Positions 52 through 21,622 of a DNA stretch of 64,000 nt are shown one piece after another. A model generated the notes under the pieces. The model saw only the letters and a list, made by a program, of their open reading frames with translations, was not told where the DNA came from and ran no database searches. Source of the DNA: Prosopocoilus inquinatus (lineage: Eukaryota > Arthropoda > Insecta > Coleoptera > Lucanidae); the NCBI GenBank assembly GCA_036172665.1, contig CM069874.1, forward strand, positions 50,636,707 to 50,700,706. The letters are read 5' to 3'. The translations under genes were made by a program, and so were the position numbers. Each line of letters starts with the position of its first letter. Positions within the stretch are counted from its first letter, which is position 1.

Positions 52-176
52 GTATAGTAATGGCAGAAGTTCTCTCTATACGACCGAAACCCTTGGATGT
101 TTTAGTTGACCACCCCTTTTTCATGGTGATTCAGAGAAAACAAGAGATATTGTTTCTGGGAAGGATTGTCGAATAG
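52..176 (+). CDS. Serpin alternative 3' exon A1 (reactive loop and C-terminus)
   Basis: This is a terminal coding exon of a serpin (serine protease inhibitor). The acceptor is ttacttacag. The first two bases, gt, complete a codon begun upstream, giving Gly if the donor base is G. The 41 residues start GIVMAEVLSIR and contain VDHPFF followed by LFLGRIVE and TAG, which is the serpin C-terminal signature (xDHPF ... LFxGRV). In the family this segment holds the reactive-centre loop that sets protease specificity, then the last strands of the fold. By spacing to VDHPF the scissile P1 residue is probably the Arg of SIRPK, which is an inference. An AATAAA lies at 248-253. The serpin body exons are outside the window to the left. 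No other family fits as well. Confidence 0.85.
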
Positions 177-391
177 ATATTGTTATGTCTGTGTAAAATA
201 CTTGAGGTGGTGGAATTCTGCTTATTATAAAACTGTATTTTCTTCTAAATAAATATTTCCAATTATCTTGAAGTTACTTTATTCGAATAGATATTGTCAT
301 GTCTGAGTAAAATACTTGAGGTGGTGGAATTCTGCTTGTTACAAAACTGCATTTTCTTTTCTTTCCAAATGATCTTGAAGTTACTTTATTC
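171..391 (+). repeat. Tandem duplication after exon A1
   Basis: The end of exon A1 and its 3' flank are partly duplicated in tandem. Positions 171-284 and 285-391 both start gaatagatattg, contain the motif cttgaggtggtggaattctg, and end in a cttgaagttactttatt-like stretch. The second copy has lost the AATAAA-bearing part. The other A exons have a single copy of this flank, so the duplication is specific to A1. Confidence 0.8.
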
Positions 392-768
392 TAGTTTTAC
401 GAGAGTTGAAGAATGTAGAAACAATTTACTTTTCATCGGCCTGTTTTAGGACAGAATTGTTACACGAAAAACATGAAAAATGTTTACACAATTAAGATTT
501 CTTTATTTAAAATATTTTTGGTCTACTGTCCTAAAGAAACGCTGGGTTAAAAAAATTTTAACTTAAGCTAGCGGATATATTTCAATTATACCTTTATCCC
601 GAATAGTCAGGTTTCTTTTCTTCGAAGACTTAAAATATTTAATCCTTTTATAACCCAAGATTCGCTTGAAAAGGGAAACGTGCAGGATGGCGAGCTGAAA
701 TCATAAAACATTAATACATTTATTGTTATTTCAAAAGGGTGTCATATGTTATTAAGTTTTTGTTTCAG

Positions 769-923
769 GAATAATTTCTGTGGGTTATTCTCTACATTAC
801 ATCCCTCCTGAGCCGAAGGTGTTCGTCGCCGATCATCCCTTCATCGCAGTATTACAGGCTTCGACTGTAGATCGAGAATTTTATATATTATTCCAAGGCA
901 AACTATCAAATCCAACTTCCTGA
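769..923 (+). CDS. Serpin alternative 3' exon B1
   Basis: This is an alternative terminal exon of the same serpin, of a second type. The acceptor is tttttgtttcag and the phase matches the A exons (ga completes a split codon, Gly if the donor base is G). The 51 residues read GIISVGYSLHY, then IPPEPKVFVADHPF, then a strand ending LFQGKLSNPTS and TGA. ADHPF and LFQGK are the serpin hallmarks, and the IPPE stretch resembles the prime side of typical serpin loops. The P1 residue is uncertain and probably within LHY. Compared with B2 and B3, the loop is one residue longer. AATAAA occurs across the stop (923-928) and again at 999-1004, as expected of a last exon. Confidence 0.85.
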
Positions 924-1059
924 ATAAAACTGACAAAATAAGTAAGATGATTTAGTGGTGGATATTTTGATTGCTTTTTTTTTTCCTTTTGCGGATAAAA
1001 TAAACGTTTAAGTTTTCAGAATATTTGTTTTATTTCTAATTTAGGTAGGTAGGTATGTA

Positions 1060-2400
1060 CGTAATATTTTAAAATTTCTATTCGGATTGTTTTTAGTATT
1101 CTTATGAGATTTTCATATTTTTTACACAGGTCAATAGAAAACAATAAATTGATACCAGCAGTGCAAGTCGTAAGAGTCATTTTGCTTTTATTATACAGTG
1201 TGTAATCAAATTAGTTTCACATATTAATACTGCAAGTTCCTCATCGTGTAAGAGAATTAATGCCGCAACTACCAAAAGTCTAGCTCCAAAAAAAAAAATT
1301 ACCTATTGGAGGAGTATTGACTCTTTTGTTTGAGAACTTCTGGTCGGCCGTTCACAAAAACAACATTATAAAACAAAATTCAAGGTCAATTGCTTGATCG
1401 CATTTTGAAAGCACAATAAAATAGAATCACCGACCCATTAAAGACGAGCGTTCAAATTTACAACTTCTCGGTCGTAGCGCGTGTGTGCATTATGGTTAAA
1501 GGAGAACAATTTAAATCTGCTTGCATTGATCAGAATTAAATCTGTTTCATTAGATAATCGACAATAATTAGAATTTGACATCCTGGTCTTTGTAAACCAA
1601 TAGTACACAGGATTTACAGTGCTAATTTTGCGTATTAAAATGATTTAAAAAAATTATTAGTCGCTTTGATTGATTGTCACTTTGTTAATTATTTCAATTA
1701 TTTCCACTAACGAATACGTTTCTTCGTAGCTCGAGTTCGATGACGCTTTAATGTTTTGGTTCCACAAAATAATAAAAGCGAGGACTGCATTCAATAACGA
1801 TTTTCCGAAATGCAGAAAGAAAAGACATTCTTAAACATTTTGCATAATAAAGAAATAACAATGCAGTTTATTGACGACCAGCAAATAAAGTACACGATGA
1901 ATACGTATGAATTAGTAAAATAATTTTAGAAAATGGAATTTCTAATTTTTATTTATTTTTACAGTTTTGTGAGCAGAAAACTATTGAAAATCACGTAAAA
2001 ATTGAGAAAAATTGATTAATTTAATAACACGATGGATATTTATAATTCTCTTCCGTTATGGAATTACATAAGCGAAGAATTTAACCCAGTGCCCTTCAGT
2101 TCAATGACGCTTTATTATTTAACGACGTTTTATGATGCGCTTGTAGAAACTAAAACACGGCCAATCAGAGGTTTTCAAACAAAAAGTCTCCGGGCTCTAG
2201 GGGGAGGGGGGGTTAATTTCTTTAATTTTTCACCAATAAAATCCATATTTGCAGAAATCACTTTCTTAAGTGATAAAGAACTTACAGTTTTAATATGTGA
2301 AACTTATTTGATTACATGCTGTATATTAATATACACGATTCAGAAATGTCTCCCGATATTTATAGGGTGACTAAAACATCAAAAAATACGGACATGTTTA
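1060..2400. other. AT-rich spacer, no gene recognised
   Basis: I see no recognisable coding segment or structured element here. The 112-codon open frame at 2032-2370 has no recognisable motif, contains a run of glycines from a g-rich stretch, and is not supported as a gene. This is presumably intron between block 1 and the palindromic insertion. Confidence 0.5.
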
Positions 2401-4190
2401 TATATACAGGTGTCCCAGAGCTCCGTAAAAGTTCCACAACTTTCTTGCTGTACCAGGTGTCGACTCAATTTTTTTTTTTTGTATAATAGAAGTACTTTCA
2501 TTGCACATTTTAAAATTATTTTCGTTTGAATACAGGGTGTCCAAGTATTATAAAAATATTAAAGTTACGTTTTTTTAAATTGAAACACCCCATTTTGACT
2601 TCATTTTTGGACTCTACACTAAATTCTGCGTTAAATTTATTTGAGTCATTTTTAAGTATCAATCATATTTATTGATGTGAGTCAATTTTTTCTTAAAAAT
2701 TTCCGGATGCAAGGTTCCATTCAAAAATTCGTAACTTCTAAACCACTAAAGATAACGCAACCGATTTTTTTTTCAGTCAATGCCAAGTCTGTGGCCAATC
2801 ATTCGAAATCAAATCAAGTCATGAAGGAATGTTCCAAGGCTTACTACGATTTTTTGAAGATGAATAATTATAAATAACAAAAATTCCATTTTTTCAAGTA
2901 GAATACCCTATATGTTTTCACACCATTCCATAGCGTTTTTGATAAGCTTTTCAATGATATACAGTTTGCAGGATCCAATTCTGATATTCGACAAATTATT
3001 GAGAAAGTAGTAATTTTTAGATGTAAATATTTAATAAACAACTGAAAGTTTCTGGTGCATTGGTGCCAAATTGAAAAGCGATTCTTATTTTAAAACAACG
3101 TCGCATTAATTACGGATATATTGTGTCAAAAAGTGCGAATTTCATTAGTTTAATATTTTATTCGCTGTGCATAATTATGCGCGATCGATTAGTAAAATTC
3201 TAACTTGAGTACTCAGGAAATCTCACGAGAAACTGATTTGTATGTCACTTTCAAATTTTATCTTGACTACTCGGAAAATCTCAAAAGAAACTGACTTGTA
3301 TATCGGTTTCCCCCGAGTACTCAAGTTAGAATTTCCATGAGTCATCAATTGAACTTCTAATTCACGCAATCTGGGAGGATAAATTTGAAATTAAAGCCGC
3401 AGTCCTACTGATTGATCGCGGATAATCATGCACAGCGAATAAAATATTAAACTAATGAAATTCGCACTTTTTGACACAGTGTATCCGTAACTGGTGCGAC
3501 GTTGGTTGAAAATTTTAATCGATTTTCATTATGGCACCAAACTACTAGAAACTTTCAGTTGTTTATTAAATATTTACATTTAAAAATTACTATTTTCTCA
3601 ATAACTTGTCGAATATCAAAACTGGACCCTACAAACTGTATATCATTGAAAAGCTTGTTAAAAACGCTATAGAATGGTGTAAAAATATACAGGGTCTTCT
3701 ATTTGAAAAAATGGAGTTTTTACTATTTATAATTATTCATAATCAAAAAATCGTAGTATGCCTTGAAACAACCCTTCACGACTCGGCTTGATCTCGAAAG
3801 ACTGGCCGCAGCCTTGCCATTGACTAAAAAAGAATCGGTTGCGTTATCTTTAGTGGTTTAGAAGTTACGAATTTTTGAATGGAACCTTGCATCCGGGAAT
3901 TTTCAAGAAAAAATTGACTCACATCAAAAAGTACGATTGATACGTAAAAATGACTCAAATAAATTTAACGCGGAATTTAGTGTCCAAAAATGAAGTCAAA
4001 ATGGGGTGTTTCAATTTAAAAAAACGTAACTTTAATATTTTTATAATACTTGGACAGCCTGTATTCAAACAAAAATAATTTTAAAATGTGCAATGGAAGC
4101 GCTTCTATTACACAAAAAAAATTTGAGTCGATACCTGGAATAGCAAGAAAGTAATGGAACTTTTACGGAGCTCTGGGACAGCCTGTATAT
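2401..4190. mobile_element. 1.8-kb long palindromic element
   Basis: The left half (about 2401-3250) is repeated in inverted orientation in the right half (about 3350-4190). The ends read tatacaggtgtcccagagct on the left and the matching complement agctctgggacagcctgtata on the right (up to 4190). The arms stay colinear for about 800 bases with scattered mismatches, and the unpaired centre lies near 3240-3370. Both ends abut TA-rich sequence, which is compatible with a TA target. The short open frames inside (2677-2877, 3606-3791) are mirror pieces of the repeat and not genes. It resembles a foldback or long-TIR non-autonomous DNA element; no family is assigned. Confidence 0.8.
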
Positions 4191-4220
4191 AGTATATATA
4201 TATATATATATATATATATT
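4191..4220. repeat. (TA)n microsatellite
   Basis: An uninterrupted run of alternating t and a immediately follows the palindromic element. It may be the element's target or a later expansion. Confidence 0.85.
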
Positions 4221-4324
4221 TCTTTTTTTCAAAAATTAAGGAAGTTACATACAACCCCTGATAGAGGGGTGAAAAATATCGTTTTCTGACAATACCTTTT
4301 TACCTTTTTTTTTTAAACATGAAT

Positions 4325-4530
4325 TCTCTCAAAGATGGATTGGTAGAGGCGGACCAATAAGAACGGCCTCCTCAATCACCCGATTTAACAAGAATCGATT
4401 TTTTTTCTTTGGGGTTATGTGAAAGATCAGATTTATAGCATACCTCCAACTACCAATGAGAATATGAAAATTAGAATCAGGGAAGCCTTTCAGAATGTCG
4501 ATATGAATTTTCTTAGAAATGTTTTCTAAG
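4325..4530 (+). pseudogene. 3' scrap of a Tc1/mariner-type transposase
   Basis: Across two shifted frames the segment gives WIGRGGPI, then PQSPDLT and IDFF, then a stretch like YVKDQIYS, then NMKIRIREAFQNVD. This order is characteristic of the C-terminal catalytic part of a widespread insect DDE transposase group (IS630/Tc1/mariner superfamily, the type often annotated DUF4817), where SPDLxPLDFFLWG carries the last acidic residue. Frameshifts break it and no start is present. It sits between the palindromic element and serpin block 2. Confidence 0.65.
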
Positions 4531-4635
4531 ACTTTCTAATAGCGTGCAATAATTTATTTTTGTTTTCCTTTGTTCAGTCAAAGCGCATAAGATATCTATT
4601 CGTAGATAATCTTCATTTTTGTTTTAAATAATTTG

Positions 4636-4712: not shown

Positions 4713-6025
4713 CTATTCCTTAATTTTTGTGTCGATAATCACTTCATTTTATTTTGATTACTGTTTTTTTTTTTATTATTCATTATGTTATGACCTTTTC
4801 TAATGATTTGATTTATGTTACTGACTGATCCGGTAGAGAACATTGGTTACTGATTTTTATTTCATTTTCATTTGCGTTACCTGTTTGCTTTTCCTGCTTG
4901 TATTCTTTTCCTAATTTCTACTAAATATAATTTTAGAAAAAGTTTAATAAAAATAATTCCTAGAGGTGATATCAGATAAACGCACATTTAATAAAATCCG
5001 TCAAGATTTTTTTTATGTAGAAAACTTATTCTCTTTTCATAAAACAAATTTAGAGATATTTTTGGATTTTTTTTTTGTATTGGAAAATGTAGGTGAATAG
5101 TGGCAGAGCCAGAACCAAATTCTAAACGGTAAGAAAACTGCAACAGGAATTTTTGGCTACTTAACTCTGTTAGAAAACTACTAACAAAGAAATTTAAACT
5201 ACGGTCTTGTGTGGTTTTCAATTTTCCTCGCTCTTATTCTGCAATAAAAGTTGTAACTGTCGAGTCCTTGTAAGGTTGTTTCATGTTTTCGTTAGTTGTT
5301 TAATCACACTTAATCCCTACGTTTTTAACCCCAACAAAAGAAAAATTTTGATTCACTTTATTTACAAATCTTTGCTAATTCTTCTGCACGAAACGTTTTA
5401 ATTATAAAAAAAATGTTGTTTTCGCCTTTTAATGTGTGTTTCGTAACTTTCATGTGCGGCTATGTGAAAAAAGGTGAAGGTTATATTTATTACAAATTTT
5501 GTTTATTATTTCATAATGAAAGCTATTTAAACAATGTAGAAAATTTATTTATTTATTTAGACTTGGAAATTGTGACAAAAATAATACATTTACTTTCTAG
5601 GGAGTAAAAGTGATGACTCACTTCCTAGGGAGTTTCATTATATTGAGACTTAGCTTAGGGCAAACATTTGTTTTGATTTTTCACTAACATTTCTTTCAAA
5701 TAATAAACTAAAATTCATTTTAAAAGTAAGTTTAGGTAATCAAATGATGAATGTCATTGGCCACTAATTTTCGAAATTAATTGAATTATCGAAAAAACAC
5801 ATACACACACGGGTTTGATTTTTTTATTCCTAAAAGTGTGTGTTCTTTTGATTTTTCTATCCTTGATCGTGAATAAAATAGTATTTACACCTAAGAAAAG
5901 AATGCAGCTCTTTCCTTGAGGTATTAACTAATTAACCCTCAGGCTACAAGTTACACCCTCAAGAAAAATAACGCATTTGCTCTATCGGTCTATAATATAC
6001 CGTTGGATAAATTTATATGTTTCAG

Positions 6026-6171
6026 CTTTAGGAATCACTGCTGACGCGGTTTTTCAAGCAATACAATACGAAATGATCGTGGACCATACATTTATGATTT
6101 TTATTCAGGATCAATCTAATGGAAGATCTAAGCTTATATTCCAAGGCAGAGTTAATGAACCTATTTACTAA
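6026..6171 (+). CDS. Serpin alternative 3' exon C1
   Basis: This is a third type of serpin terminal exon. The acceptor is tatatgtttcag, in the same phase as A and B; ct completes the split codon, giving Ala if the donor base is G. There are 48 residues: a loop containing ITADAVFQAIQY, then VDHTF, then FIQDQSNG, and the closing LIFQGRVNEPIY before TAA. The GRVNEP end is typical of serpins. The usual Pro of DHPF is Thr here, and C2 shares this. An AATAAA lies at 6277-6282. P1 is not clear from spacing. The loop differs strongly from C2 although the rest is almost the same. Confidence 0.85.
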
Positions 6172-7123
6172 AAATATTTAACAATTGTATCACTTTTGTT
6201 GTAATTTTTACGACAATTGCAAACTGTATTGCATCGTATTGTTCATAATTAATTATCATCAATTATGTAGCACTAAAATAAAAAAGATAGCATACAGGGA
6301 AACATTTAATTATTTTTTTCTTTCTAAATTTTTACGCCAATTTAACATTATGTTCTAATACTTTGGAAGTTTATGTGAACGTGTTGAGCGAAAACCGATT
6401 TTTTAAATAAATCTAAAAGCTTGAAGAATAAAAATAAAATATCATGTAAGAGTCGAACACTATAATTCAATGCAAAGAGAAATTCTCTATAGTAAAGGTA
6501 TGCGTATACAGTGTCTTTCAAAATGTGTGCTACAAATGGGATTTTGTAATCGATTTTTTGTAAACATTTATTGGCGCTCGACGCTTCTGCATCCCTTAAA
6601 GTCAACCTGGGAAACGTCAGATAAAATTTATCTTCAACGGTATACAACGTGGACGTGGAGAAATGAAGACCACTTCAGAGTAAAATGACCTTATACATAG
6701 ATACAGGAAAATGTCAAGAGAAAGGGTCGTTCAGAATTATTGAACGTTCTAGCTAAATATGAAAATCATCCTCCTATGTCAAAAATAAAAAAAATAATTG
6801 TGAATCACTCTTTATACGCTGTATTAGGAAATACTGGTGGGATTAAAGTGACAGTCAAAATAATGTAAATAAACGAAATTCGTTCTAATGTTTCAAATAC
6901 TTCATTTGGTTCCGAGTGATTATATCAATGTATTCTGAAACTTTGTGCTTTCTTGTAGAATTCATCATTCATTGCCGTTTCGAGCATCCCCTGGATAGCT
7001 ATTTCAGTCCTAATTGGAACTGTATTTAAAAACATAAATCTTTATTATGATGCAATCTTATCCTCAGACTAATCTAATGACTGAGAAGAAGTTCTCCTTT
7101 TTATCGATCGAAATTACTTACAG

Positions 7124-7246
7124 GTTTAGTAATGGTTGAAGTTTTCTCTATACGACTGAAACTCTTGAATGGTTTAGTTGACCATCCCTTTTTCATAGTA
7201 ATTCAGAGAAAATAAGATATTGTTTCTGGGCAGGATTGTCGAATAA
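7124..7246 (+). pseudogene. Serpin alternative exon A2, broken
   Basis: This is a type A exon with a good acceptor (ttacttacag) and the start GLVMVEVFSIR, then LVDHPFFIVIQRK. A 2-base deletion relative to A1 (caagag becomes aag-like) brings TAA into frame at 7213-7215. The LFLGRIVE end is then out of frame, although its bases are still present to 7246. If spliced it would give a serpin lacking the last strand, so it is probably non-functional. The hAT element begins about 90 bases downstream, and no clean AATAAA is seen before it. Confidence 0.8.
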
Positions 7247-8302
7247 ATACTGTTATGTCTGTGTAAAATACTTGATGTGGTGGAATACTACTTATTACAG
7301 AACTGTATTTTCTTTTTCCAAATAAGTATTTAGAATTTAGTGCTGTTGCAAACCGTATGTATTCGTTAATGAGTAACGGGTATAACATGAGACTCAAAGT
7401 ACCGATTCGTTACTTGTTAAAACATTTCGTTACTCGTATGACCAAAGCGCATGATTTGATACGAAAGAGGTACGAAAGAATTCGAGCTCCCGATCAATCC
7501 GTATTTTCAGTTATAAGTTGCTTATCTCGTATGTGCCTCTACAGGTTACGTAGTCATTTTTAGTAAGTGGCAATTGTTTTTTTAAGTATTTTATAATAAA
7601 AAGAGTTGTGGTGAATTAGTACGAAAATTTACAACTTGGAGTGTAATGCGAATGATAATTTCTATAAATAGAGAAGACGTTCCGCGCCTTTGAACGTGCG
7701 AAGTTAGGGGGTGTACAAGTTCGATGCAATACAACAACATTCGAAGTGGACTCAAAGCTGATAATAAACAAAATTATTTTTTCCTATAGCGAACGTTACA
7801 GTGTGCTTTGTTCAACTCAAAACAGTCCATAAAACGGAATTTGAACAGCAAGCGTAGATAAAGTAATTTTCGTTTTATTAAAAATTTATTTAGACAAATA
7901 TCGTTTATTAATAATTCTATTAAAATTTAAAATATTCCTTGTTTTGATTGGACTTCTTGAATACAAATTAAAATATTTACACACTTTAAGTGTTTAGCAC
8001 TTCAATTGCATTGATTCTGACCAATTGCCCGACTGCATTAATTTCGTTTTTTATTAGTGCAATTATGGAAAGAAAAAGGAGTAAACTTTGGAGTTTTTTT
8101 TTTTTTACTAAAGTATCAGAAAATAAAGCCAAGTGTGACGTGTGTCAATCTTCCTATTCAGTAAAAGGTGGTTCAACAACCAATTTGAAAAAAACATTTA
8201 GTAACCAAACACCGCCCGTCTTATGACGCTACATTCCTTCCAACATCCTCTAATTCTTCCTTATCCTTACCACCATCGCCCACGTTACCGACTTCGTCTT
8301 CA

Positions 8303-9217
8303 AGGCAACTTAATAGATTGCAAGAAAGTGCTGGAAGCGTCGCACAATTCGTCAGAGAAGGCCCTCTGTTAGAAAGACCATGCAACCCAACCCAACTTAG
8401 GGTCTAGGACAATTCGCCATCTCCGATTTGTCGTCGCCAATTCACCGTCGCCGATTCGTCGTAGGTACAATTCACCGCCAGAAAACTCGCCGTCGGTAAA
8501 TTCCCGTCAGCGATTAAAGTTTTAATTAATGGAAAATAAAATAATTTGTTATTAATTAAATGTGATACATAGATAAAGAAACAGATAAAAAAATTTGGTC
8601 TTCCAGGAAGTATTTCTTATTCTTCTGGGTGTTCGCAAAATCCCTCCAATTCTTCTTTTTTATATTTTCAGATTCTGCTCAAAATTATATTGATTTTCAT
8701 ATCAATCAAAATCACTACACATCAAAAGTCGACTGCTTTCAAAATATAGATTCATGAAGTTCGTCGTTTAAAATTATAAATTGAAAAAGGAGTTCCATTA
8801 AAAAGAAATAGAATTATGATTATGCGTACGTACAGTACCAATTTTTTCGTAGTTTTGTGTCTTACGGTGGTCGCATTGTAATTAGGAATTTATTTTAACT
8901 TGAAATAGAAAAACAATAGTAAAGTCCATTTTAATTTACTTGAAACGTACTGAAATTATAGTTATTTTCTTCAGTTCGTAGGTATAACTTGGATATTATC
9001 TAAAATGGTCAGAAAGTGTTTTAAAGCTTATCAAGCTAAATAAAGCAGTAACATGTGACGGCGAATTGGGCGGACGGTAAATTGGATCGACGGCGAATTG
9101 GTTCTACAACGAATTGGCGACGGTGAATCGTCCCATCCCTCCCAACTTAATAGTTTGCAAGAAAATGTGGGAAGCGTCGTATAATCCATCAGAGAAGGCG
9201 CTCCGTTAAAAAATCTA
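8303..9217 (+). repeat. Diverged 75-base direct repeat flanking the nested element
   Basis: The stretch at 8303-8378 (aacttaatagattgcaagaa, then ggaagcgtcg and tcagagaaggc) recurs at about 9146-9217 with roughly ten differences. The two copies lie on either side of the element at 8397-9131. They are too diverged to be a recent target duplication. An older tandem duplication in the transposase linker, later split by the insertion, is more likely. Confidence 0.65.
8397..9131. mobile_element. Nested element with cgattcgtcg-rich terminal inverted repeats
   Basis: The left end (gggtctaggacaattcgcc and repeats of a cgccaattcaccgtcgcc-like motif) is inverted at the right end (ggcgacggtgaatcgtccc). 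Both ends contain several short reiterations of the same motif, and the middle is plain AT-rich DNA with no coding capacity. It is flanked by cccaactta on both sides, a probable 8-9 base target duplication. It sits in the linker region of the hAT transposase. I cannot assign the superfamily. Confidence 0.65.
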
Positions 9218-9607
9218 AAACAAACAGGCGTTTCGATGTTTATAAGGGAACTTATACATGTCGCACAGGGAAAAAAAAATAATGATTTAATCCTAAAACT
9301 GATTATTAAAGATCTCCAGCCATTTTCTGTAGTAGAGAATTAGGGTTTTAAGGATTTATTAAATTATCTTGAACCCAATTATAAAATGCCGTCAAGATTT
9401 TTATTAAGTAATAATTTGCTTGATACTCAGTATATATTGGGCCAAAGAAAAATTGAAAAATGAATTAAGTCGCACCTCATATGTATCATTAACGATGATT
9501 ACCTCATGCGCAACAACTTCGAATTTAGCAGTCACCGCGCATTACATTTTGGACGATGTTTGGAAATTGCGTTCAGCACTCTTAGGCTGTTTTGAATGTC
9601 ACGAGCG

Positions 9608-9910
9608 ACATACTGCTGAATATATATATTTTTTTTATCTATGGTGTTTGCCCAACGGGGTCCTAAGTCATAGACTTGTCAGGACCTCGGGAGCAGGGGA
9701 GTGTATTTTTGTGCGTGCAAAGTGTTCCATAGCTTTGTTACTTCCAAACCTCCTCGCCGTTGAAGGGGAAGTAGTGTCGAATTTTCTCCCGAACACTAAA
9801 GGGTACCCGAAGTGAGTAACAACCCTCGAGAAATATCTTGAGCGGAGTGCGAACCCACGATCTTACGATTGCAAGGCCGGTCCCTTACCACTGGACCGTT
9901 CAGGCGTTAA
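9608..9910 (-). mobile_element. tRNA-derived SINE
   Basis: On the minus strand the segment starts with a tRNA-like head. It has an A box in ccagtggtaagggaccgg and a B box in gtgggttcgcactcc, the two internal promoter elements of RNA polymerase III. A non-tRNA body of about 230 bases follows, running to the tract near 9610. It interrupts the hAT transposase frame, with aatata at both edges as a possible short target duplication. The 131-codon open frame on the plus strand at 9420-9815 is a chance reading across the SINE and the transposase. Confidence 0.7.
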
Positions 9911-10570
9911 TATAAAACAAAAATTGATTGATATCACCACTCAATGGGAAATAAATGATAAAATCTGTGTCTGCGTAACAGACAACGCAGCAAACGTGAA
10001 AGCAGCAATAAGATTGTCGGAATGGGAGCATTTGTCATGTATTGCTTATACTCTAAATTTAATAGTTCGTGCCGGTCTTGAAGTCATACAGGACATTATC
10101 AAGAAAATCAAATCTATTGTCGAACATTTCCATAGGAGCCCTTTGGCTACAAAGCAATTCTTTAGTGTGCAGGAGCAACTAAGACTAACACAAAAAGCAC
10201 TGAAACTCAAAATTGATGTTATAACCCGTTGGAATAGTACCTTAGATATGATAGAAAGAGTAGCTAATTTGCAAGAACCTACAGAAGCTGCACTGGGTTT
10301 ATTGCACAACCCTGTGCAAAATTTATCAGATAGCGAATGGCAGGTTCTTCCAGAAATTATAAAAATTTTAAAACCATTTAAACAACTTACGGAAGAAATG
10401 TCATTTGAAAATGAGGTAACTATTTCAAAAGTTTTGGCCGTCAATAATAGCGTTTTCCAAATGTTAGCCAATTTACGTAGGACTTTAACCAGCATTTTAT
10501 CAAAAAATTTACTTTATGAACTAATTGCTGAATTCAACAGCAGATTCAGAAACAGTTCGCGAGATCCATT

Positions 10571-10690
10571 GTTGTCAAAGGCAGCTCTTTTGGATCCAAG
10601 ATCCAAGAGGCAAGCTTTTATTGACGATCTGTTGTCAAAGGCAGCTCTTTTGGATCCAAGGTTCAAAAGGCAAGCTTTTATTGACGATGT
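10571..10690 (+). repeat. In-frame 60-base tandem duplication in the hAT transposase
   Basis: Two adjacent 60-base copies differ at a few positions. They each encode the LLDPR(S/F)KRQAFIDD segment, a conserved part of hAT transposases that normally occurs once. The frame is kept. Confidence 0.9.
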
Positions 10691-11124
10691 TTCTGATGAG
10701 TATGTCAAAAGTTCTTTAGAAACTGAATTACACAATATCACCATTACATGCATATCAGAAAACCAGGAAAAAGAACCAAATTTGATCTAAAATCAAGTTC
10801 CTATACATCAGTTACTACTATCAGTGTCTTGACAATCCGCCAATACATAGAAGAAAAGCAAGTTTCAAGGAAAAAAAAAAATCCATTGAACTGGTGGCAC
10901 ACACGTAGAATAGTTTATCCACATCTTGCTGATTTAGCAAAAAAAATATTTGTCTGTTCTGGCTACATCGGTACCGCCGGAGAGAATCTTTTCCAAATCA
11001 GGTCAAATACTATCCGACAAACGTGCTTCACTAAAACCAAAACGTATGGAGAAAATATTGTTTCTAAATATAAATCAAAGATTCCTTTAATTATCAGAAA
11101 GGAAAATTTAACCACATTTTGATA

Positions 11125-11455: not shown

Positions 11456-12178
11456 GATTATTTTATATTAAGACTCACTTTATTTACAAACCTTGCTAAT
11501 TCTTCTGCACGAAACGTTTTTAATTAAAAAAAAAATGTTCTTTTCGCCTTTTAATGTGTGTTTCGTAACTTTCATGTGCGTATCTATGTGAAAAAAGGTG
11601 ATGGTTATACTTATTACATAATTTACATAATTTTATTTATTATTTCATAATGGAAGCTATTTAAACAATGTAGAAAATTTATTTATTCACGACCGAGTGT
11701 AGGCAACAGTTTCTATTACTTGGAAATTGTGACAAAACTAATACTTTTACTTTCTAAGGAGTAAATGTGAGGACTTACTTCCTTGGGAGTTTCATTATAT
11801 TCAGACTTAGCTTAGGGCAAACTTTTGTTTTGATTTTTCACTAATATTTCTTTCAAATAATAAACTCAAATTCATTTTAAACGTAAGTTTAGGTAATCAA
11901 ATGATGAATGTCATTGGCTACTAACTTTCGAAATTAATTGAATTGTCGAAAGAAACACACACACGGGTAACATTTCTTTATTCTTAAATGTATGTGTTCT
12001 TTTGATTCTTCTACTCTTGATCGTGAATAAAATAGTATGTACACCTAAGAAAAGAATGTTGCTCTTTCCTTGAGGTATTAACTAATTAACCCTTAGGCTA
12101 TAAGTTACACCTCAAGAAAAATGACGCATTTACTCTACCGGTCTATAGTATACCTTTGGATAAATTAATATGTTTCAG

Positions 12179-12324
12179 GTTTAGGAATCACCGCTGAATC
12201 GTCTTTTGAAGAAAAACAACACGAAATGATCGTGGACCATACATTTATGATTTTTATTCAGGATCAATCTAATGGAAGATCAAAGCTTTTATTCCAAGGC
12301 AGAATTAATGAGCCAACCTACTGA
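12179..12324 (+). CDS. Serpin alternative 3' exon C2
   Basis: This is the second type C serpin terminal exon. The acceptor is aatatgtttcag; gt completes the split codon, giving Gly if the donor base is G. There are 48 residues with a loop containing ITAESSFEEKQH, then the same EMIVDHTFMIFIQDQSNG as C1, then LLFQGRINEPTY and TGA. An AATAAA lies at 12430-12435. In the loop, 7 of the 9 residues DAVFQAIQY of C1 are replaced, while the next 22 residues are identical. The loop is more acidic than in C1. P1 is uncertain; Lys of EKQ or a neighbour is possible. Confidence 0.85.
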
Positions 12325-13278
12325 AAGTATTTAACAGTTGTATCACTTTTGATGTAATTTTTACAACTGCAAACTGTATTGCAAAGCATTGTTCATAATT
12401 AATTATCATCATTAATTATGTAGCATTAAAATAAAAGAAATGGCATGCAAGGAGAAATTTATTTTATTTTTCCTTATTATTCAGAAATATTTTTGTGCGT
12501 ATTTCGCATTATGTTCTAAAACTTTGGAAGTTTATGTGAACATGTTGAGCGAAGACCATTGTTCTACATAAATCTAAAAACTTGAAGAATAAAAATAAAA
12601 TATAATGTAAGAGTCGAACACTATAATTCAATGCAAAGAGAAATTCTCTATAGTAAAGTTATGCATATACAGCGTCTTTCAAAATGTGTGCTACAAATGG
12701 GATTTTGTAATTGATTTTTTGTAAACATTTATTGGCGCTCGACGCTTCTGCATCCCTTAAAGTCAACCTGGGGAACGTCAGATATAATTTGTCTTCAACG
12801 GTATACAACGTGGACGTGGAGAAATGAAGATCACTTCAGAGTAAAAAGACCTTACAGATACAGGAAAATGTCATAAGAAAGAGTCGTTCAGAATTATTGA
12901 AATTTCTAGCTAAATATGAAAATCATTCTCCTATGTCAAAAATGAAAAAATCATTGTAAATCATCTTTATGCGCTGTATTAGGAAATATTGGTGGAATTA
13001 AAGTGTCGGCAAAAATAATGTGAATACACGAAATTCGTTCTAATGTTTCAATTACTTCATTTGGTTCTGAGTGATTATTTCAATGCGTTCTGAAACTTTG
13101 TGCTTTCTTGTAGAATTCATCATTCATTGCCGTTTCGAGCATCCCCTGGATAGCTATTTCAGTCCCAATTAGAATTGTATTTAAAAGCATAAATCTTTAT
13201 TATGATGCAATCTTATCCATAGACTAATCTAATGACTGAGAAGAAATTTTCCTTTTTATCAATCGAAATTAATTATAG

Positions 13279-13403
13279 GTTTAGTAATGGCTGAAGTTCT
13301 CTCTATACAACCGAAACCCTTGGATGTTTTAGTTGACCACCCCTTTTTCATGGTGATTCAGAGAAAACAAGAGATATTGTTTTTGGGCAGGATTGTCGAA
13401 TAG
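13279..13403 (+). CDS. Serpin alternative 3' exon A3
   Basis: This is a type A exon with 41 residues starting GLVMAEVLSIQ and ending LFLGRIVE and TAG. The acceptor ttaattatag differs from the ttacttacag of A1 and A2. The likely P1 position holds Gln (SIQPK) where A1 has Arg. The predicted protein is identical to that of A4, and the exons differ by one silent base (ttg or ctg for Leu). An AATAAA lies at 13475-13480. Confidence 0.85.
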
Positions 13404-13742
13404 ATATTGTTATGTCTGTGTAAAATACTTGTGGTGGTGCAATTCTGCTTATTACAAAACTGTATTTTTTTCTAAATAAATATTTCCAATTATCTTGTAG
13501 TTACTTTATTCTAGTTTTACGAGAGTTGAAGAATATAGAAACAATTTTTTTTTTCATCGACATTGCATAGTAACAAAGAATGCCTGTTTTAGGGCAGAAT
13601 TGTTATATGAAAAGCCTATGAAAAATGTTTACTCAATTAAAATTTTTTTATTTAAAATATTTTGTGTTGGTCTTCTAAAGAAATGCTGGGTTAAAGAAAT
13701 GGAAACTTCATCTAGCGGATGTATTTCAATTATATCTTTATC

Positions 13743-14095: not shown

Positions 14096-14112
14096 AACTT
14101 TATCCATAATAG

Positions 14113-15057
14113 TGTCACGATAAGGATTTAATTTTTAGCCTAAAATTAATAATTATAAAATGTAAAGGTATCGCGACGAAAAATTTCCGCGAGGAATAAA
14201 GTAGAACAATTAAGACAGCAATCTTGCGAAATCTAAGCTACAAGCGGTTCACGTTTCATAACAAAACACGCGCTATATGTGGGACAAATTAATACAACAG
14301 GTGACGAAAGGAGAACACAGAAACATGTCATAACAGTCGAATAGACAGATTTTCGCCTATATAACGTACGGAAGAAGATTGGAAGGCAGTCGAACCCGAC
14401 TCCGGTAGGCTTAGTGCCTACTGTAAGAAGGGCAGCCGCCCTCGCAGTCGAACCAGCCGTCGACTCAAGTAGGCCTAGTGCCAACTTCCCCGGGAGGACC
14501 TTCCTCACCGACGCCGTGCGGCCACCGCCGCGTCGGAACGCTGCCCGTTCCACGGAGGCATCCTCACCGACGCCTTGTTGCCGCCACCCTCATCAGGACG
14601 CTGCCCGTTCCACGGAGGCATCCTCACCGACGCCTTGCTGCCGCCACCCTCATCAGGACGCTGCCGTTTCCAAGAAGGATCATCATCACCGACGCCTTGT
14701 TGCCGCCACCCTCATCAGGACGCTGCCCGTTCCACGGAGGCATCCTCACCGACGCCTTGCTGCCGCCACCCTCATCAGGACATCTCATCGCAATTACTGC
14801 AGCCCTCGAGATTGCCCTGGATCCGGTTAGCCGAATCGTCGGATCTCTTCAACCCCAGCACAGAGGGATTCCTCATCCTCGCTGTCGCAGCCGACCCGTC
14901 GCGATTACGAGAATCACGAAAACGCACCCCCGCACATTTAAAGATCGTCCGCCGATAGATAATAATATTCATTAAATAAAGGTATACATTGTTTTGGTAA
15001 ACTGTGTTTTCAAGCTCTACCACTGAGAACCAGATACCTACCCCTAACCACGTGACA
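14113..15057. mobile_element. 945-bp solo LTR, gypsy-like
   Basis: The segment starts TGTCACG and ends CGTGACA, which is a perfect 7-base terminal inverted repeat of the TG...CA type. It is flanked by ATAG on both sides (14109-14112 and 15058-15061), a 4-base target duplication of gypsy type. It holds a TATA box (14358-14364) and an AATAAA (14975-14980) in the right order for an LTR on the plus strand. No internal retroviral-type genes are next to it, so it is a solo LTR left by recombination. The open frames of 100-165 codons inside come from its tandem repeats and are not genes. Confidence 0.8.
14490..14790 (+). repeat. 60-base GC-rich tandem repeat inside the solo LTR
   Basis: About four and a half copies of a 60-base unit lie here, with the motif cgacgccttgctgccgccac and ggacgctgcccgttccacgg. 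The first copy is degenerate and the third has a variant aagaaggatcatcatc. As 60 is a multiple of three, all forward frames stay open across it. It is strikingly GC-rich against an AT-rich background. Confidence 0.9.
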
Positions 15058-15379: not shown

Positions 15380-16428
15380 ACGAAACTGAAAAGATAAGTA
15401 AGATGGTTTGGTGGTTGAGATTTTCGTTGTTTTTGTTTTTTTTTGGGGGGGGGGGGATAAAATAAACATTTAAGTTTTCAGAATATTTGTTTGTTTTGGG
15501 ATCAAATAAATGTTTGAGTCTTGAATATTTGTTTTATTTCTAATTTATTACGAGCGCTTAAGCAACCGTGTCAGTGACTCCAAAATCGGCTTGCGTTTTA
15601 TGTAATCTATATCAGATGTTAAAAACGTCATTCACAAGAGCGTTTTCTAAAACGTTCAAGCGCTCGATTTTTCTAACGTCGCGAATAGAACTTATCGGTT
15701 TCCTTAATTTTTGTGTTTTTTCTTTTCTATTATTTATTATGTTATGTCTTTTCCTAATGATTTGATTTATGTTACTGACTGACCCGATAGAGGACATTGG
15801 TTATTGATTTTTATTTCATTTTTATTTGCGTTACTCGTTTGCATTTTCTGCTTTTCCTAATTCGTACTAAATATAATTTTAGAAAAAAGTCAATAAAAAT
15901 AATTCCTAGGGGTGATTTCAGATAAACACACATTTAATAAAATCCGTCAAGATTTCTTTTATGTAGGAAACTTATTCTCTTTTCATAAAACAAATTTAGA
16001 GATATTTTTGGATTTTTTTTTTATTGGAAGATGTAGGTGGATAGTGGCAGAACAAGAACCAAATTCTAAACGATAAAAAAACTACAAGAGGAATTTTTGG
16101 CTACTTAACTCTGTTAGAAAACTACTAATAAAGAAATTTAAACTACGGTCTTGTGTGGTTTTCAATTTTCCTCGCTCTTATTCTGCAATAAAAGTTGTAA
16201 CTGTCGAGTCTTTGTAAGGTTGTTTCATGTTTTCGTTAGTTGTTTAATCACACATAATCCCTACGTTTTTAACCCCAACAAAAGAAAAACTATGACTCAC
16301 TTTATTTACAAATCTTTGCTAATTCTTCTGCACGAAGGTTTTTAATTATAAAAAATGTTCTTTTCACCTCTTACTAATCTAATGACTGAGAAGAAATTTT
16401 CCTTTTTATCAATCGAAATTAATTATAG

Positions 16429-16553: not shown

Positions 16554-17063
16554 ATACTGTTATGTCTGTGTAAAATAATTGAGGTGGCGGAATTCTGCTT
16601 ATAGCAGAACTGTATTTTCTTTCTCCAAATAAGTATTTAGAATTATCTTGGAGTTACTTAGTAGTTAAATTATCCTAGTTTTACGAGAGTTGAAGAATAT
16701 AGAAACAATTTTCTTTTCATCGACAGTGTATATTAACAAAGAAAAGTGATTTTAGGACAGAATTGTTACACGAAAAGCCTACAAAAATGTTTACTCAGCT
16801 AAAATTTCTTTATTTAAAATATTTTTGGTTTATTCCTAAAGAAACGCTAGTTAAAAAAATGTTAACTTCATCTAGCCCAACTATACCTTTATCCCGAATA
16901 GTCAAGTTTCTTTTCCTTGAAGACCTGAAATATTTTATTCTTTTATAATCCAAGCTTCGCTTGAAAAGGGAAACGTTCAGAATGGCGAGCTGAAATCATA
17001 AAACACTAATACATTTATCGTTTCTTCAAAAGGATGTCAAATATTACTAAGTTTTTGTTTCAG

Positions 17064-17215
17064 GAATAATTTTTAAGGGTTACTCTATGCATCTCCCTGC
17101 TGAGCCGGAGGTGTTCGTCGCCAATCATCCCTTCGTCGCAGTATTACAGGCTTCGTCTGTAGATGGAGAATTTTATATGTTATTCCAAGGCAGACTATCA
17201 AATCCATCTTCCTGA
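17064..17215 (+). CDS. Serpin alternative 3' exon B3
   Basis: This is a type B exon with acceptor tttttgtttcag and 50 residues. It is like B2 except for Lys instead of Glu in the loop (IIFKGYSMHL), Glu instead of Lys in PAEPE, Val for Ile, and Asn for Asp in the signature (ANHPF instead of ADHPF). It ends LFQGRLSNPSS and TGA. AATAAA lies at 17283-17288. Loop charges thus swap between B2 and B3 while most other residues match. Confidence 0.85.
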
Positions 17216-17399
17216 ACGAAACTGAAAAGACAAGTAAGATGGTTTGGTGGTTGAGATTTTTGTTGGTGTTTTTTTGGGATCAAATAAATGTTTCAGTTTT
17301 GAATATTTGTGTTATTTCTAATTTAAGGGCGATTCTGTACTTGCGCTTTATGTAATCTGTATCAGATGTTAAAAACGTCGTGTTTTAGAAGCAGAAATC

Positions 17400-20300
17400 A
17401 AATGGAAGCAAGAACATTGGAGAATTTTTAATTGAAAAATTAAAGGAAAGATGATTGTAATTCTCCGACAAACTAAAATCAGTAAAAAAAAGTTCATATC
17501 GCAGCTCAGAAAAAATGGTGAAAAAGAATTTGAAAAAAAAATTAACAAAGGCTTAGATAAGAAATAATTACATTTTAAAGGACATATAAAAAATAAAAGA
17601 AAACAAACAGTATTCGGGATAAACAAAAAATCAAAGTTCAAAAATCAGCATCTATGAGCTTGATGAATAAAAAGTAAGCTTTGGCTGATTAACAAAAGCA
17701 AAAGCTGTAACAGCAAATTTTTTAAGAAAAAACAGTGACTGAATTATTATATTGAATGAAAATCCCAAGCATTTACTAGCTTTCCGGCTCCGTTGAAGCA
17801 ATTGCTAAGCACTATTTGCGCCGAGTTGGATATCTGCTTAGTTGAAGGATTTGATTCATTAAATAGTCTTCCGAATAAGATTCGTAGTCAATGTTGTGCC
17901 GATCATTTCTGCGGTGATGCAACTCATGTCAACGGCGATCTAGAGTTTTATTCGTGCTGCGCACTCGCCAAATTCATATACCAGCGCCGTTGACATTCGT
18001 AGGATCATGTTAATTGGGTAGGCCCCCAAACAGTATTAGTCCAGCGCCTTCAAAGTTTAAGGTCTGCCCATGTGCACAGGCTTGATCATATGAAGGCTAC
18101 AGGGGTAAAAAGATGATTGTACAAAATCCACCATTTTGAAATAAAGATGAGCAACTGCATTGACCGTTCTGGTCAGGTAGGCGTTCCTTAGTGCACGCTT
18201 GTTGAGGGTGTTGTGGTTGTTTGTTTGGTTGGTAACGCTTGCCCGATGTCATGTGGTATTTCAGCGGAGGGTTTCCTTCCTTTTTCGACGGCGAACAAGT
18301 GTGCGGTGAATTAGCGATCACGTCTCTGAAGCGTTGTGAGCTAGGTGTTATTTGGATCGATTTTGTTGATGGAGCAGTGAGCCGACCGTGTTGATTGGAT
18401 TACAGTCAAATCATTAGTTACTGTCTTAGCAGGTTGTGAGACTTTGTTCGGCTTTGAGGAACGTGTGAATCCTTCCCGGCTTGCTGTATTTCAGTAAAAT
18501 AAGCGCCATGTTGATTCTGTATTTTGTTCCTTGGTTGTTTTCCACGTGCGTTTACCGCTCGTGGTCGCAAATTTCACACATTTTTTTCCTTCTATTAAGT
18601 AGTTTCGAGCATATTTTCATCACCGAATCAGTGCCGCCTCGCTTATTTCGTGCTTTCTATCGAAAAAAATAAGTTAGACTGTTCCCGTTTTCGGGTTGCA
18701 ACGGCGACCCATCGACGTTCCGCCCTAGAGGGATTGAGTAAGAAATTTCGTTCTTTTTGTTTTCGTCCTCGGAGACGTGTTACGTGACGTCAGTCCACGG
18801 GCGTGCTTCGAGCCAGTGGCGGGTCCCGTGTGGGCCTACAGTTTCACCGACGAATTCGGCGGGAGGGAGCGTTTGTTTGTTTGAGTTTGCTGCGATGACG
18901 TAATCGAGGGAGTTTCTGTTTTCCTTTTTTTTGTAATCAAATGGAATTTATTTACACTGTTGTTGTTCTTTATTTGGCAAATTTTACTAGTGTTTGTTAA
19001 CTGTTAATTTTGGAGTCTCTCTCCTTATTGTTTTTTATCGTTTTCTTTTTACTTTCATTTACTTGGTCTGTGCGCTTCACACTTTAATTTTTGGATATTC
19101 CTTTTGATGTTAAGTGATCCCACTCACACCGATGCGCCAACGCCCTTTGAGTTGGGCAGTGTAAATTCGAGTGTTTTGATATTTTTTCGTCGGTTAACCT
19201 TATTAGGGGTCGTGCACATTTTGGTTCATTTTATCCGAGTGCTTTAAAACATTTTGTTTTTAGCCGAACCTAAACATCTTTCTTGCGAGCTTATACTTTC
19301 GGGAAGAAACTCAAAGATCAGCTCCGGGCCTTGTTTATTAATTTCATTTGGGTACGTATGGTGTACCCAAATGACATAGCGGGTCAGTGTTGCCAACTTA
19401 GCGGATTTCCCGCTAGTTCTAGCTTAGTTGAAATCATATCTGGAGTCAGAATTTTCCATCTAGCTGCTGGCAGATTTTCTTAGCTTATTTTCGCGTTTTC
19501 TTCGGCAGAAATATGACTTATAAATGTTATAAAAAATTCATATGACTTGTAAATTTTATAAAAAAATATATGATAGTAACAAAGTTAGAATTGACAAGCA
19601 ATGACTTATCTATTTCAACTATGATGTCCTACAAATTTAGAAACTATCCTAGAAAGTTATAATCTATCCTAGAACGTTAAAAACTGTCCTAGAAAATTAG
19701 AAACTATTCCAGGACATCAGAAGTTACAAAAATTAGATGGCGTAATGACAAGCATTTGTTTCAAGATTCCTAAGCAATGTTGCCATCTTGACAAACTTAT
19801 CTCTAGTAGTGATGTTTAATCAGTGATTGTGACCCTCTTACGATAAATGAGGCACGTCTGATGTGTGCTTAGCCGTTTACAAAACTTGAAAATTGATTTT
19901 TTTTTTTTTCATTAAATAAACTTGTTGGCAGTAGCTAACTCATGAGGTGGGTTGAGCAACTGCTAAATGTCAAATGATTTAAAGGCTTATGGGGTCTATT
20001 CTGTATCAAAACCGTTAAATTTAAAGGGATGTTAAATTTTGTTGCTATGGTAACAACCCATCATGGAACTGCCTTTTAAATTTTAAAGGACCTCTGAATT
20101 TTAACAGTCCGCTAAAAAGTTACAGAAAACGCCACTATTACAACTTAGATATAGCTTATTTATTCAAAATTTGACGGATTTGCATGCTCTATCTGGCGGA
20201 TTAATTTTATGGTAGTTGGCAATGCTGCAGCGAATCCTGGAGAGTTGTACTTCAGGGCATTTTCCCGGCCGTGTGTTGCCCTTTTCTTGGGTTGCGTAAT

Positions 20301-21060
20301 ATTTACTGGATGGCGGTCTTAATCGTAATATCTTCTGATTCCCCCACGGCGTCTCCACTGAGTGGTCACAGTTACGTATCTCCTCTTCACACCTTAGTCT
20401 CTGAGGGAATGATCGACCTTACTTCCAGAGGCACGGTAAGTTACAGTTGGGTCAGCCCCACAAACTGTGGGTCAAAACACGCTGAGCGCTCCTTTCTTTA
20501 CCACGTAACAAATAATTCTTTGGAACAAAAATGGAAAGGAATATTGTTGAAACAGAATATTTCAGAATACAGAATTATGTATGCATTTAGAAACCACATA
20601 TCAATTTGACACTGGGACCTTGGGAATGGGAATTTAATAAACAGTAACTTTTTTTCAGAAAATGAGTTACGCACACACTACAGTTTCTAATAACATACTT
20701 AACCTCTGGAATACATTTCACGGACTTCATCTTAATATAATTAAAAAATAATTGACAATTGAAAAACCCGATTTCATATTGTTATCAAGTTATTTAGCAT
20801 TTCAGAGATAAACTGTGCTTTAATGACTTTTGCGTTCTGTTGAACAATTCTGTTTTAGTGACTTGGTGCAGTTTACCTCTCAGGTATTGATATTACTATC
20901 TTACTGAATAAATCCGTGCGATTTTATTTTGGTATTTAAAGTATTTTGACATTAAATTTATGATGTTTTATTTGTTAGAACTTACACATCAGGATGTACC
21001 TAAATATTAATTATTTTGTTGCATGCTTAACGGCCTGTTTGGTAGTTAATAATGCAGCAT
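17400..21060. other. Intron spacer between B3 and D; no gene recognised
   Basis: No coding exon is recognised. Positions 17400-17760 are AT-rich. From about 17760 to 18950 the base composition is clearly richer in G and C, with many CpG. Around 19360-19480 and 20160-20470 are moderately GC-rich stretches with the open frame 20271-20609, which has no recognisable motif. Some of this may be unidentified mobile DNA. Confidence 0.5.
18690..18925. promoter_or_regulatory. CpG-rich stretch with CRE-like sites
   Basis: Within an AT-rich window this stretch has many CpG dinucleotides. It contains a perfect palindromic CRE, TGACGTCA (18785-18792), and a second CRE-like TGACGTAA (18896-18903). CRE sites bind bZIP factors of the CREB/ATF group and are common in promoters. 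Whether this is a promoter within the serpin intron, or the control region of an old mobile element, cannot be told. Confidence 0.3.
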
Positions 21061-21061
21061 C

Positions 21062-21140
21062 TGTGTGGCCAAGTAGTTAGCATCAAACTAGCTGTGACTT
21101 TTACCACTAACAAGTCAGGGGTTCAAGTCCGAAGCAAAAA
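21062..21140 (+). mobile_element. Possible tRNA-derived SINE head
   Basis: The stretch has a possible A box in tggccaagtagttagcatc and a B box in ggggttcaagtccgaagc, followed by an a-rich run. The stems of a true tRNA do not pair well, so it is not called a tRNA gene. It lies about 300 bases before serpin exon D. Confidence 0.4.
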
Positions 21141-21437
21141 AGCTCTTTTTCTAATTTTTTTTAACGATACCTTTCGAATTAAATAAGATTTGAGAAAAAA
21201 AAGAAAAAGAAACTTTGTTGTTGTGACGGTTATTTTACGGTGTAATTGTTTATTTAGTGAGGTATTCGTAGATTGACCAAACGTCCCGTTTTCTCCGGGA
21301 CAGTCCCGTATTTCCGTGTACATTGATCATCACGTTGTTTCACAAATTTCCCAAGTTTGTGCCTTTTTTTTGCAAAAAGAGAACACTCAATGATTTATTA
21401 TTTTACAGCTGAAATCATTTGAAAGTTTTTGTTTCAG

Positions 21438-21622
21438 AGGGAGGGCTAATGTTTTTCTGTGCGTCGGGTCCTGAGGAGTTCCTCGCCGACCATCCCTTCA
21501 TAGCTCTCTTGCAGAGTTCCACTGAGGATGGAGAAGTTTGCATATTATTCCAAGGCAGGCTAGCGAATTTAATTCACCGAAAAAAACTGAAGAATCGGAT
21601 ATTTGCGTGGTTGAAATTTTGA
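21438..21622 (+). CDS. Serpin alternative 3' exon D (extended C-terminus)
   Basis: This is a fourth type of serpin terminal exon, the last in the array. The acceptor is tttttgtttcag, and ag completes the split codon (Glu if the donor base is G). Its 61 residues start EGGLMFFCASG, then PEEFLADHPFIALLQSSTEDGE, then ILFQGRLAN. The type B stop is absent: the usual NPSS end is replaced by NLIHRKK and a basic, aromatic tail ending AWLKF before TGA. It carries two Cys, one in the loop. Its closest relative is type B by upstream intron (gctgaaatcatt, gtttttgtttcag) and framework. AATAAA lies at 21639-21644. It could be functional or a decaying copy. Confidence 0.8.

Follow-up and report, generated by a model that had tools for sequence, protein, structure and literature searches.

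Introduction

Several insect serpin genes exchange the reactive-centre loop and C-terminus of an otherwise constant protein by alternative use of 3′ exons. In the published accounts, Spn42Da of Drosophila melanogaster (Serpin 4) has two invariable core exons followed by four loop exons, with the splice point in the hinge and a furin-type R-R-K-R/A site (PMC4006314), and Manduca sexta serpin-1 has 14 copies of exon 9 (PMC5691223). Pteromalus puparum PpSerpin-1 is described with 21 transcriptome-backed C-terminal forms; among C-terminally spliced insect serpins the splice lies at +1 after the hinge in 161 of 192 genes, with a G/GTAAGT donor and TTNCAG acceptors (PMC10513286). For Tribolium castaneum, loop exon duplication with alternative splicing is reported in 4 of 31 serpin genes, as a/b pairs (PMC2375007, 2007). 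Here, a stretch of 64,000 nt from the lucanid beetle Prosopocoilus inquinatus (contig CM069874.1, here C6; C6:50636707-50700706), referred to as the window, is analysed together with its surroundings. The window seems to carry the 3′ end of a single inhibitory serpin gene in which, with a probability of roughly 0.9, the reactive-centre loop and the C-terminus are exchanged in a comparable manner.

Results and Discussion

An upstream serpin core and a long array of C-terminal cassettes

A sequence-only reading of the window had proposed ten alternative reactive-loop exons of one serpin, with loop swapping as in Manduca serpin-1 and Spn42Da, and had placed the constitutive exons outside the window, on the same strand and ending in a phase-1 donor. 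Such exons were looked for upstream and found. A serpin body exon (exon 1, C6:50552764-50553656, with an ATG at 50552802) is followed by a hinge exon (exon 2, C6:50557696-50557837), whose end is 78.9 kb upstream of the window. The two exons share the plus strand with the cassettes. The body exon contains the serpin domain PF00079 above the Pfam cut-off (4.7e-82). The 3′ end of exon 2 encodes EEGAEAAAAT plus one base, which gives the phase-1 donor ACT G/GTAAGT. Inhibitory serpins have a hinge of small residues with the pattern EEGxEAAAA, and the hinge motif of exon 2, NEEGAEAAAATG, conforms to it. With a rough weight matrix, values of 10.7 and 11.3 bits were obtained for the donors of the core.

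When the core was joined to five different cassettes of the 26 described below, complete serpins of 373-387 aa resulted in all five cases. The best solved-structure match is Spn42Da isoform B (7.4e-84), and chain 1k9o, ‘alaserpin’, which we take to be Manduca serpin-1K, matches less well (5.7e-71). The upstream core, the joined proteins and the structure match to Spn42Da, one of the two genes named in that reading, support the proposed loop swapping.

Cassettes were located with a profile. Its 60 source cassettes belong to other proteins and were drawn from the best 120 of 3,236 protein matches to the body; the other 60 rows of the 120 lacked the hinge pattern or a tail of 35-70 aa and were dropped. 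A scan of 8,526 six-frame open reading frames (ORFs, at least 20 aa) of a 264 kb region gave 29 matches of at least 13 bits, without exception on the plus strand; all other listed scores were 8.4 bits or less. The array consists of 26 plus-strand cassettes of at least 40 aa with 25 different C-termini. It covers 100 kb (C6:50558690-50658328), starting 78 kb upstream of the window. A truncated copy is also present at window position 7124, and a remnant of doubtful status (4.8 bits) at 50620019. The window contains the last nine complete cassettes and the truncated one, and the scan detected no more cassettes in the 42 kb that follow them within the window or in the next 10 kb. The observed ten-segment array is real, although its description is confirmed only in part, and the actual array is about 2.7 times larger (27 with the truncated copy, against 10).

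In each cassette, an acceptor is followed by a variable loop, by two conserved strands ([DN]x[PST]F and [LIF]FxG) and by a separate stop codon. The phase is constant, the first codon of each cassette being completed by the G of exon 2. The nine acceptors that had been listed for the window (52, 769, 6026, 12179, 13279, 15228, 16429, 17064 and 21438) are exact to the base, and the frame continues in each from the phase-1 donor. The array had also been taken to be unusually spread out and split by transposons, and indeed cassette starts are 0.3-17.6 kb apart, with a hAT remnant between 7124 and 12179.

Comparison with described systems

As in Spn42Da, two core exons are followed by loop exons, the splice point is in the hinge, and a furin-type site is found; four loop exons are reported there, in contrast to the 26 cassettes of at least 40 aa over 100 kb described here. 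Features shared with the PpSerpin-1 clade are the phase-1 splice position (+1 relative to the hinge), the motifs of donor and acceptors, and a constant body with a variable tail. The 21 forms reported for PpSerpin-1 are transcriptome-backed, whereas the 26 forms here are candidates read from the genomic sequence. Loop exon duplication with alternative splicing is also shared with the Tribolium serpins, which are reported as a/b pairs and not as a long array. With Manduca sexta serpin-1 the locus shares a large number of alternative exons for the loop and C-terminus. The exon 9 copies of Manduca serpin-1 are internal and are followed by a shared exon 10, whereas the cassettes here seem to end their own transcripts.

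Relatives in other beetles (Onthophagus, Diabrotica, Harmonia, Dendroctonus and others) are named ‘serine protease inhibitor 3/4’ or ‘antichymotrypsin-2’, isoforms Xn, and have a similar body and numbered isoforms. Judged by the names among the best 120 of 3,236 matches, at least 21 beetle species have a related serpin under numbered isoforms. Within the same 120, the named relatives of the body are beetles, with about 50-62% identity over nearly the whole length, apart from three rows of the stick-insect Timema at 52%; the highest identity is 64%, and the protein collection yielded no close relative. Because of the Spn42Da layout, the published splice point and motifs, and the beetle relatives with isoforms, the locus belongs to a known kind. 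It is a large new member of that kind, remarkable for its size and its visible recent expansion; no claim is made that it is the largest.

Cassettes in the window

The segments within the window are listed below in window coordinates; the slash follows residue 8, and scores are those of the profile.

52..176, plus strand: cassette type A1, GIVMAEVL/SIRPKPLDVLVDHPFFMVIQRKQEILFLGRIVE, stop TAG, 35.3 bits
769..923, plus strand: cassette type B1, GIISVGYS/LHYIPPEPKVFVADHPFIAVLQASTVDREFYILFQGKLSNPTS, stop TGA, 50.0 bits
6026..6171, plus strand: cassette type C2, ALGITADA/VFQAIQYEMIVDHTFMIFIQDQSNGRSKLIFQGRVNEPIY, stop TAA, 28.7 bits
7124..7215, plus strand: truncated type A (pseudo-exon), in-frame stop after 30 codons, without the LFxGR strand, 13.6 bits
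12179..12324, plus strand: cassette type C3, GLGITAES/SFEEKQHEMIVDHTFMIFIQDQSNGRSKLLFQGRINEPTY, stop TGA, 34.6 bits
13279..13403, plus strand: cassette type A2, GLVMAEVL/SIQPKPLDVLVDHPFFMVIQRKQEILFLGRIVE, stop TAG, 35.1 bits
15228..15379, plus strand: cassette type B2, GIIFEGYS/MHLPAEPKVFVADHPFVAILQASSVDGEFYMLFQGRLSNPSS, stop TGA, 51.0 bits
16429..16553, plus strand: cassette type A3, protein identical to A2, 35.1 bits
17064..17215, plus strand: cassette type B3, GIIFKGYS/MHLPAEPEVFVANHPFVAVLQASSVDGEFYMLFQGRLSNPSS, stop TGA, 47.9 bits
21438..21622, plus strand: cassette type D, EGGLMFFC/ASGPEEFLADHPFIALLQSSTEDGEVCILFQGRLANLIHRKKLKNRIFAWLKF, related to B, last found in the array, 44.6 bits

The division into four sequence types holds: A (52, 7124, 13279, 16429), B (769, 15228, 17064), C (6026, 12179) and D (21438). 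Along the window they follow one another as A B / C A′ / C A B / A B / D, and an extra type C copy is present just left of the window, at -979. The frame of type D is 14 codons longer, because there is no stop at the type B stop position. In B1 (769), an AATAAA starts at the final base of the TGA stop. All ten segments had been credited with an acceptor, a stop and the signature ADHPF or VDHPF followed by LFLGR or LFQGR. This is correct for the acceptor and stop of nine complete cassettes, but the segment at 7124 is a truncated pseudo-exon, and the literal signature is present in only five of the ten (52, 13279, 15228, 16429 and 21438). Deviations are VDHTF in type C, IFQGR at 6026, a terminal LFQGK at 769 and NHPF at 17064; the wider signature [DN]H[PT]F ... 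[LI]F[LQ]G[RK] covers 9 of the 10 segments.

A search of the whole genome (649.6 Mb, 173 contigs) with one type B cassette (B1), in which the 12 best candidates were scored, placed 10 of 10 matches in this locus and the neighbouring serpin gene (C6:50465084-50658274). A repeat family scattered through the genome was rejected on this basis.

The proximal cassette

The most proximal cassette, at C6:50558690-50558856, reads GGAIRMRR/SVFG... and ends in RDEL. Its R-M-R-R/S aligns without a gap with the furin-type site R-R-K-R/A of Spn42Da. HDEL ends 6 of the 60 cassettes taken from other proteins. Tails of the RDEL or HDEL type retain proteins in the endoplasmic reticulum (ER), and the natural inference is that this cassette would specify an ER-retained inhibitor of furin-type convertases.

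A conserved framework and divergent loops

In an alignment of 25 cassettes (23 of this gene and two of the neighbouring gene, leaving out two type A copies and one that crosses the locus border), the only invariant columns are F, F and G, and one further column is at least 90% conserved. Alignment of all 28 cassettes of the two genes gives the same three invariant columns. In Spn42Da, H357-P358-F359, F372 and G374 are reported to be among a small number of conserved residues needed for the scaffold to accept any loop exon (PMC4006314). At the sequence level, the invariant F, F and G match F359, F372 and G374. Around the scissile bond the cassettes are highly variable. At residue 8, eight different residues are found among the 26; residue 8 is only nominally P1, by alignment with Spn42Da, and is uncertain by at least one residue because loop lengths differ by up to seven residues.

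Type C changes are mostly in the loop. Per pair, there are 8-14 replacement versus 0-1 silent changes in the loop, and 1-4 replacement versus 0-4 silent changes in the framework. Fisher tests for three pairs, which are non-independent and uncorrected, give p = 0.0004, 0.046 and 0.13 for loop versus framework, and p = 0.04, 0.15 and 0.053 for loop versus flanking intron. These values suggest positive selection for new loops in type C, with the samples being tiny and dependent. Types A and E, leaving aside the truncated copy, have a loop ratio of replacement to silent rates (dN/dS) of 0.6-0.7 and no replacement excess, and changes in the framework of type A and of the E pair are silent only (replacement differences, Nd, 0; silent differences, Sd, 1-4). 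Type B has a loop ratio of 1.2-1.7 in two pairs. It cannot tell loop from framework, since its framework also has only replacement changes (2-7 per pair, none silent).

In the cassette tree, 52 of 84 inner branches are left open. Although it is otherwise poorly resolved, the tree supports four local groups that stand apart: type A, types B and D together, type C, and the E pair. The tree gave no placement of the window cassettes among the cassettes of other beetles, nor did it group the RDEL cassette with the HDEL ones.

Splice and 3′-end signals

Signals were assessed in 28 cassettes, 26 of this gene and two of the neighbouring gene, or in the 21 that are non-redundant (19 and two). It should be noted that the branch-point, polyadenylation (poly(A)) and donor tests were devised after the sequences had been viewed. 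The acceptors of the 28 cassettes are T-rich (0.57). For comparison, 2,185 other YAG sites of the array have a value of 0.35. At 10-60 nt upstream, CTAAY is present for 8 of the 28 acceptors and for 7.6% of those other sites.

Within 100 nt past the stop, AATAAA is found in 11 of the 21 non-redundant cassettes, against 20% of random array positions (p = 0.001; p = 0.007 at 150 nt), and within 60 nt in 8 of 21, against 12%. When ATTAAA is also counted at 100 nt, the figures are 13 of 21 against 31% (p = 0.003). AATAAA exceeds its reverse complement by 8 to 3 within 60 nt and by 11 to 6 within 100 nt (n = 21). For both hexamers over the 28 cassettes, 20 are found within 110 nt, versus 9 in upstream, 10 in 600-nt-downstream and 15 in antisense controls; within 150 nt the counts are 21 versus 13, 12 and 20. 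The sequence past the stops is AT-rich, which accounts for part of the hexamer excess. The cassettes are probably alternative terminal exons, each with a poly(A) site of its own.

Growth of the array, repeats and transposons

Two features that touch on the growth and spacing of the array are the following.

5561..7356, plus strand: duplicated unit of about 1.8 kb with C2 and the truncated A; its copy is at 11718-13511, 6.15 kb on
7990..11090, plus strand: hAT-type transposon remnant between cassettes 7124 and 12179, frame broken

The two copies of the duplicated unit are 89-93% identical in five listed blocks; a further block covers the end of the unit at which cassette A lies and has a lower identity to its reference copy. 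Other stretches of the window are repeated at spacings of 10.9 kb, 3.2 kb and 1.8 kb. The hAT remnant has a BED zinc finger at 7990-8223 (PF02892, E 1.1e-7) and a hAT dimerisation region at 10938-11087 (PF05699, E 3.6e-9). For the longest frame between these domains, 9816-10787, a Pfam scan at 0.001 found nothing.

A stretch of about 450 bp is present in two copies, at 4898-5353 and 15844-16297, that are 93% identical. It is a unit distinct from the 6.15 kb duplication, because its second copy is just upstream of cassette 16429. Between cassettes 769 and 6026, at 2616-3983, there is a large inverted repeat, probably a fold-back transposon, whose arms are 87% complementary over 429 nt and 95% over 158 nt. 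A GC-rich tandem repeat in AT-rich surroundings, at 14502-14781, has a 60-base unit in 4.7 copies with 87% match and probably gives rise to the long, overlapping open frames seen at this place.

Other elements are found beyond the last cassette. Reverse transcriptase fragments at 24364-25395 (minus strand), 45796-48094 (minus) and 56475-57578 (plus) probably derive from LINE-type elements; RVT_1 was detected in three ORFs by a Pfam scan that excluded two frames at 46556-48094. Two overlapping frames at 31799-33810 (minus) have DDE_1 and HTH_psq domains and probably represent a pogo-like transposase with a frame break. A mariner-like transposase fragment at 41595-42047 (minus) matches PF01359 with E 4e-4, below the Pfam cut-off.

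The neighbouring serpin gene and the start of exon 1

A second serpin gene is situated at C6:50452546-50465218, about 184 kb to the left of the window and 100 kb farther upstream than the core. Its body is 76% identical to that of the gene described here, and a separate hinge exon and two cassettes belong to it. Of these cassettes, one is 71% identical to the big-array cassette at 50583207. Thus tandem gene duplication has occurred at the locus. Exon 1 of the big-array gene starts with IFGVILSCLVTA, a hydrophobic, leader-like sequence ahead of MAEDT. An upstream scan for a signal-peptide exon or an alternative N-terminal exon gave eight candidate pieces, none of which was established.

Proposed mechanism and alternative explanations

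The following mechanism is proposed. The donor of the hinge exon would be spliced to one cassette per transcript, and the transcript would then, probably, be cleaved and polyadenylated just beyond the stop of the chosen cassette, such that each RNA would give a single serpin carrying a single bait loop. From the proximal cassette, with R-M-R-R/S and RDEL, would come the ER-retained inhibitor of furin-type convertases, and the remaining cassettes would be directed at different proteases, of which some may act in immune cascades. New members arise in the array by tandem duplication of kilobase units, and members are lost by decay.

Several points weigh against this reading or its 3′-end part. 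The argument from constant phase is partly circular, because the acceptors were picked by eye to preserve the frame, and two were re-picked; P1 is nominal, as noted above; and a search of the protein collection with one type B cassette found no counterpart. AATAAA and its reverse complement are equal within 120 nt (12 and 12 of 21), and for both hexamers over the 28 cassettes the count within 60 nt is not raised (9, versus 7 in upstream, 9 in 600-nt-downstream and 8 in antisense controls). The antisense count also nearly keeps pace at 110-150 nt. On these counts the poly(A) evidence is weaker than its p-value implies. Donor-like sequences past the stop bear on an arrangement with the same loop swapping in which the cassettes are internal, mutually exclusive exons spliced to one shared 3′ untranslated exon, as in Manduca serpin-1. 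High-scoring donors are slightly above chance, with at least 7 of 9 positions matched within 150 nt in 7 of 21 cassettes (22% expected) and at least 7 bits within 200 nt in 6 of 21 (17% expected). Weak donor-like sites are also common to copies of one type (A, B, C and the E pair), and some are kept in place, for example AAAGTGAGA in the E pair and [TC]AAGTAAGA 18 nt past the stop in type B; common descent would give such sharing. On the other hand, no donor of at least 8 of 9 was found within 300 nt past the stop in any of the 21, although chance (5% per place) gives about one, and 12 of 21 have no donor of at least 4 bits within 100 nt. The donor test separates cassettes from random positions in neither direction. 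With the AATAAA excess near the stop also counted against it, the internal-exon arrangement is considered unlikely, and terminal exons are favoured.

Somewhat less likely again is a use of only part of the array. In this case the distal cassettes, most of the window's among them, would be young duplicates heading for decay that are rarely or never spliced to a body 80-100 kb upstream. The window part is repeat-rich and recently duplicated, one of its ten segments is truncated, the last cassette has lost the type B stop, and two cassettes encode an identical protein. The type B framework, with its replacement changes only, is also unlike a sequence under strong constraint. However, the acceptor, the frame and the three invariant residues are kept in nine of the ten, the framework changes of type A (apart from the truncated copy) and of the E pair are silent only, and the changes in type C are mainly in the loop. 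That the cassettes are instead remnants of separate tandem serpin genes with lost bodies is highly improbable, even though a second tandem serpin gene with two cassettes is present 100 kb upstream. A translated search of the 264 kb with the body found two body exons and two hinge exons, and its other matches were short, with E values (4.0 and 6.3) as expected by chance. As no body remnants above chance were found between the cassettes, separate degenerate genes were rejected.

Significance of the array

A bolder version of this reading is put forward only tentatively. The locus, with 26 cassettes and 25 C-termini over 100 kb, might be among the largest reactive-loop arrays, made of terminal exons with their own poly(A) sites. 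In that case the choice of bait would depend on the distance covered by the polymerase and on the competition among poly(A) sites. The ER-retained furin inhibitor, being proximal, would be the default, and the distal end would act as a nursery in which duplicated loops diverge under positive selection.

The locus is a clean and large example of how many protease inhibitors may be obtained from one gene. Copies of several ages lie side by side, from a pair that encodes an identical protein to a pseudo-exon, so that exon birth, divergence and death can be traced within one locus. If it is true that the exons are terminal with their own poly(A) sites, the choice of bait would be linked to the choice of 3′ end, which would offer a testable mechanism for picking one cassette in about 26.

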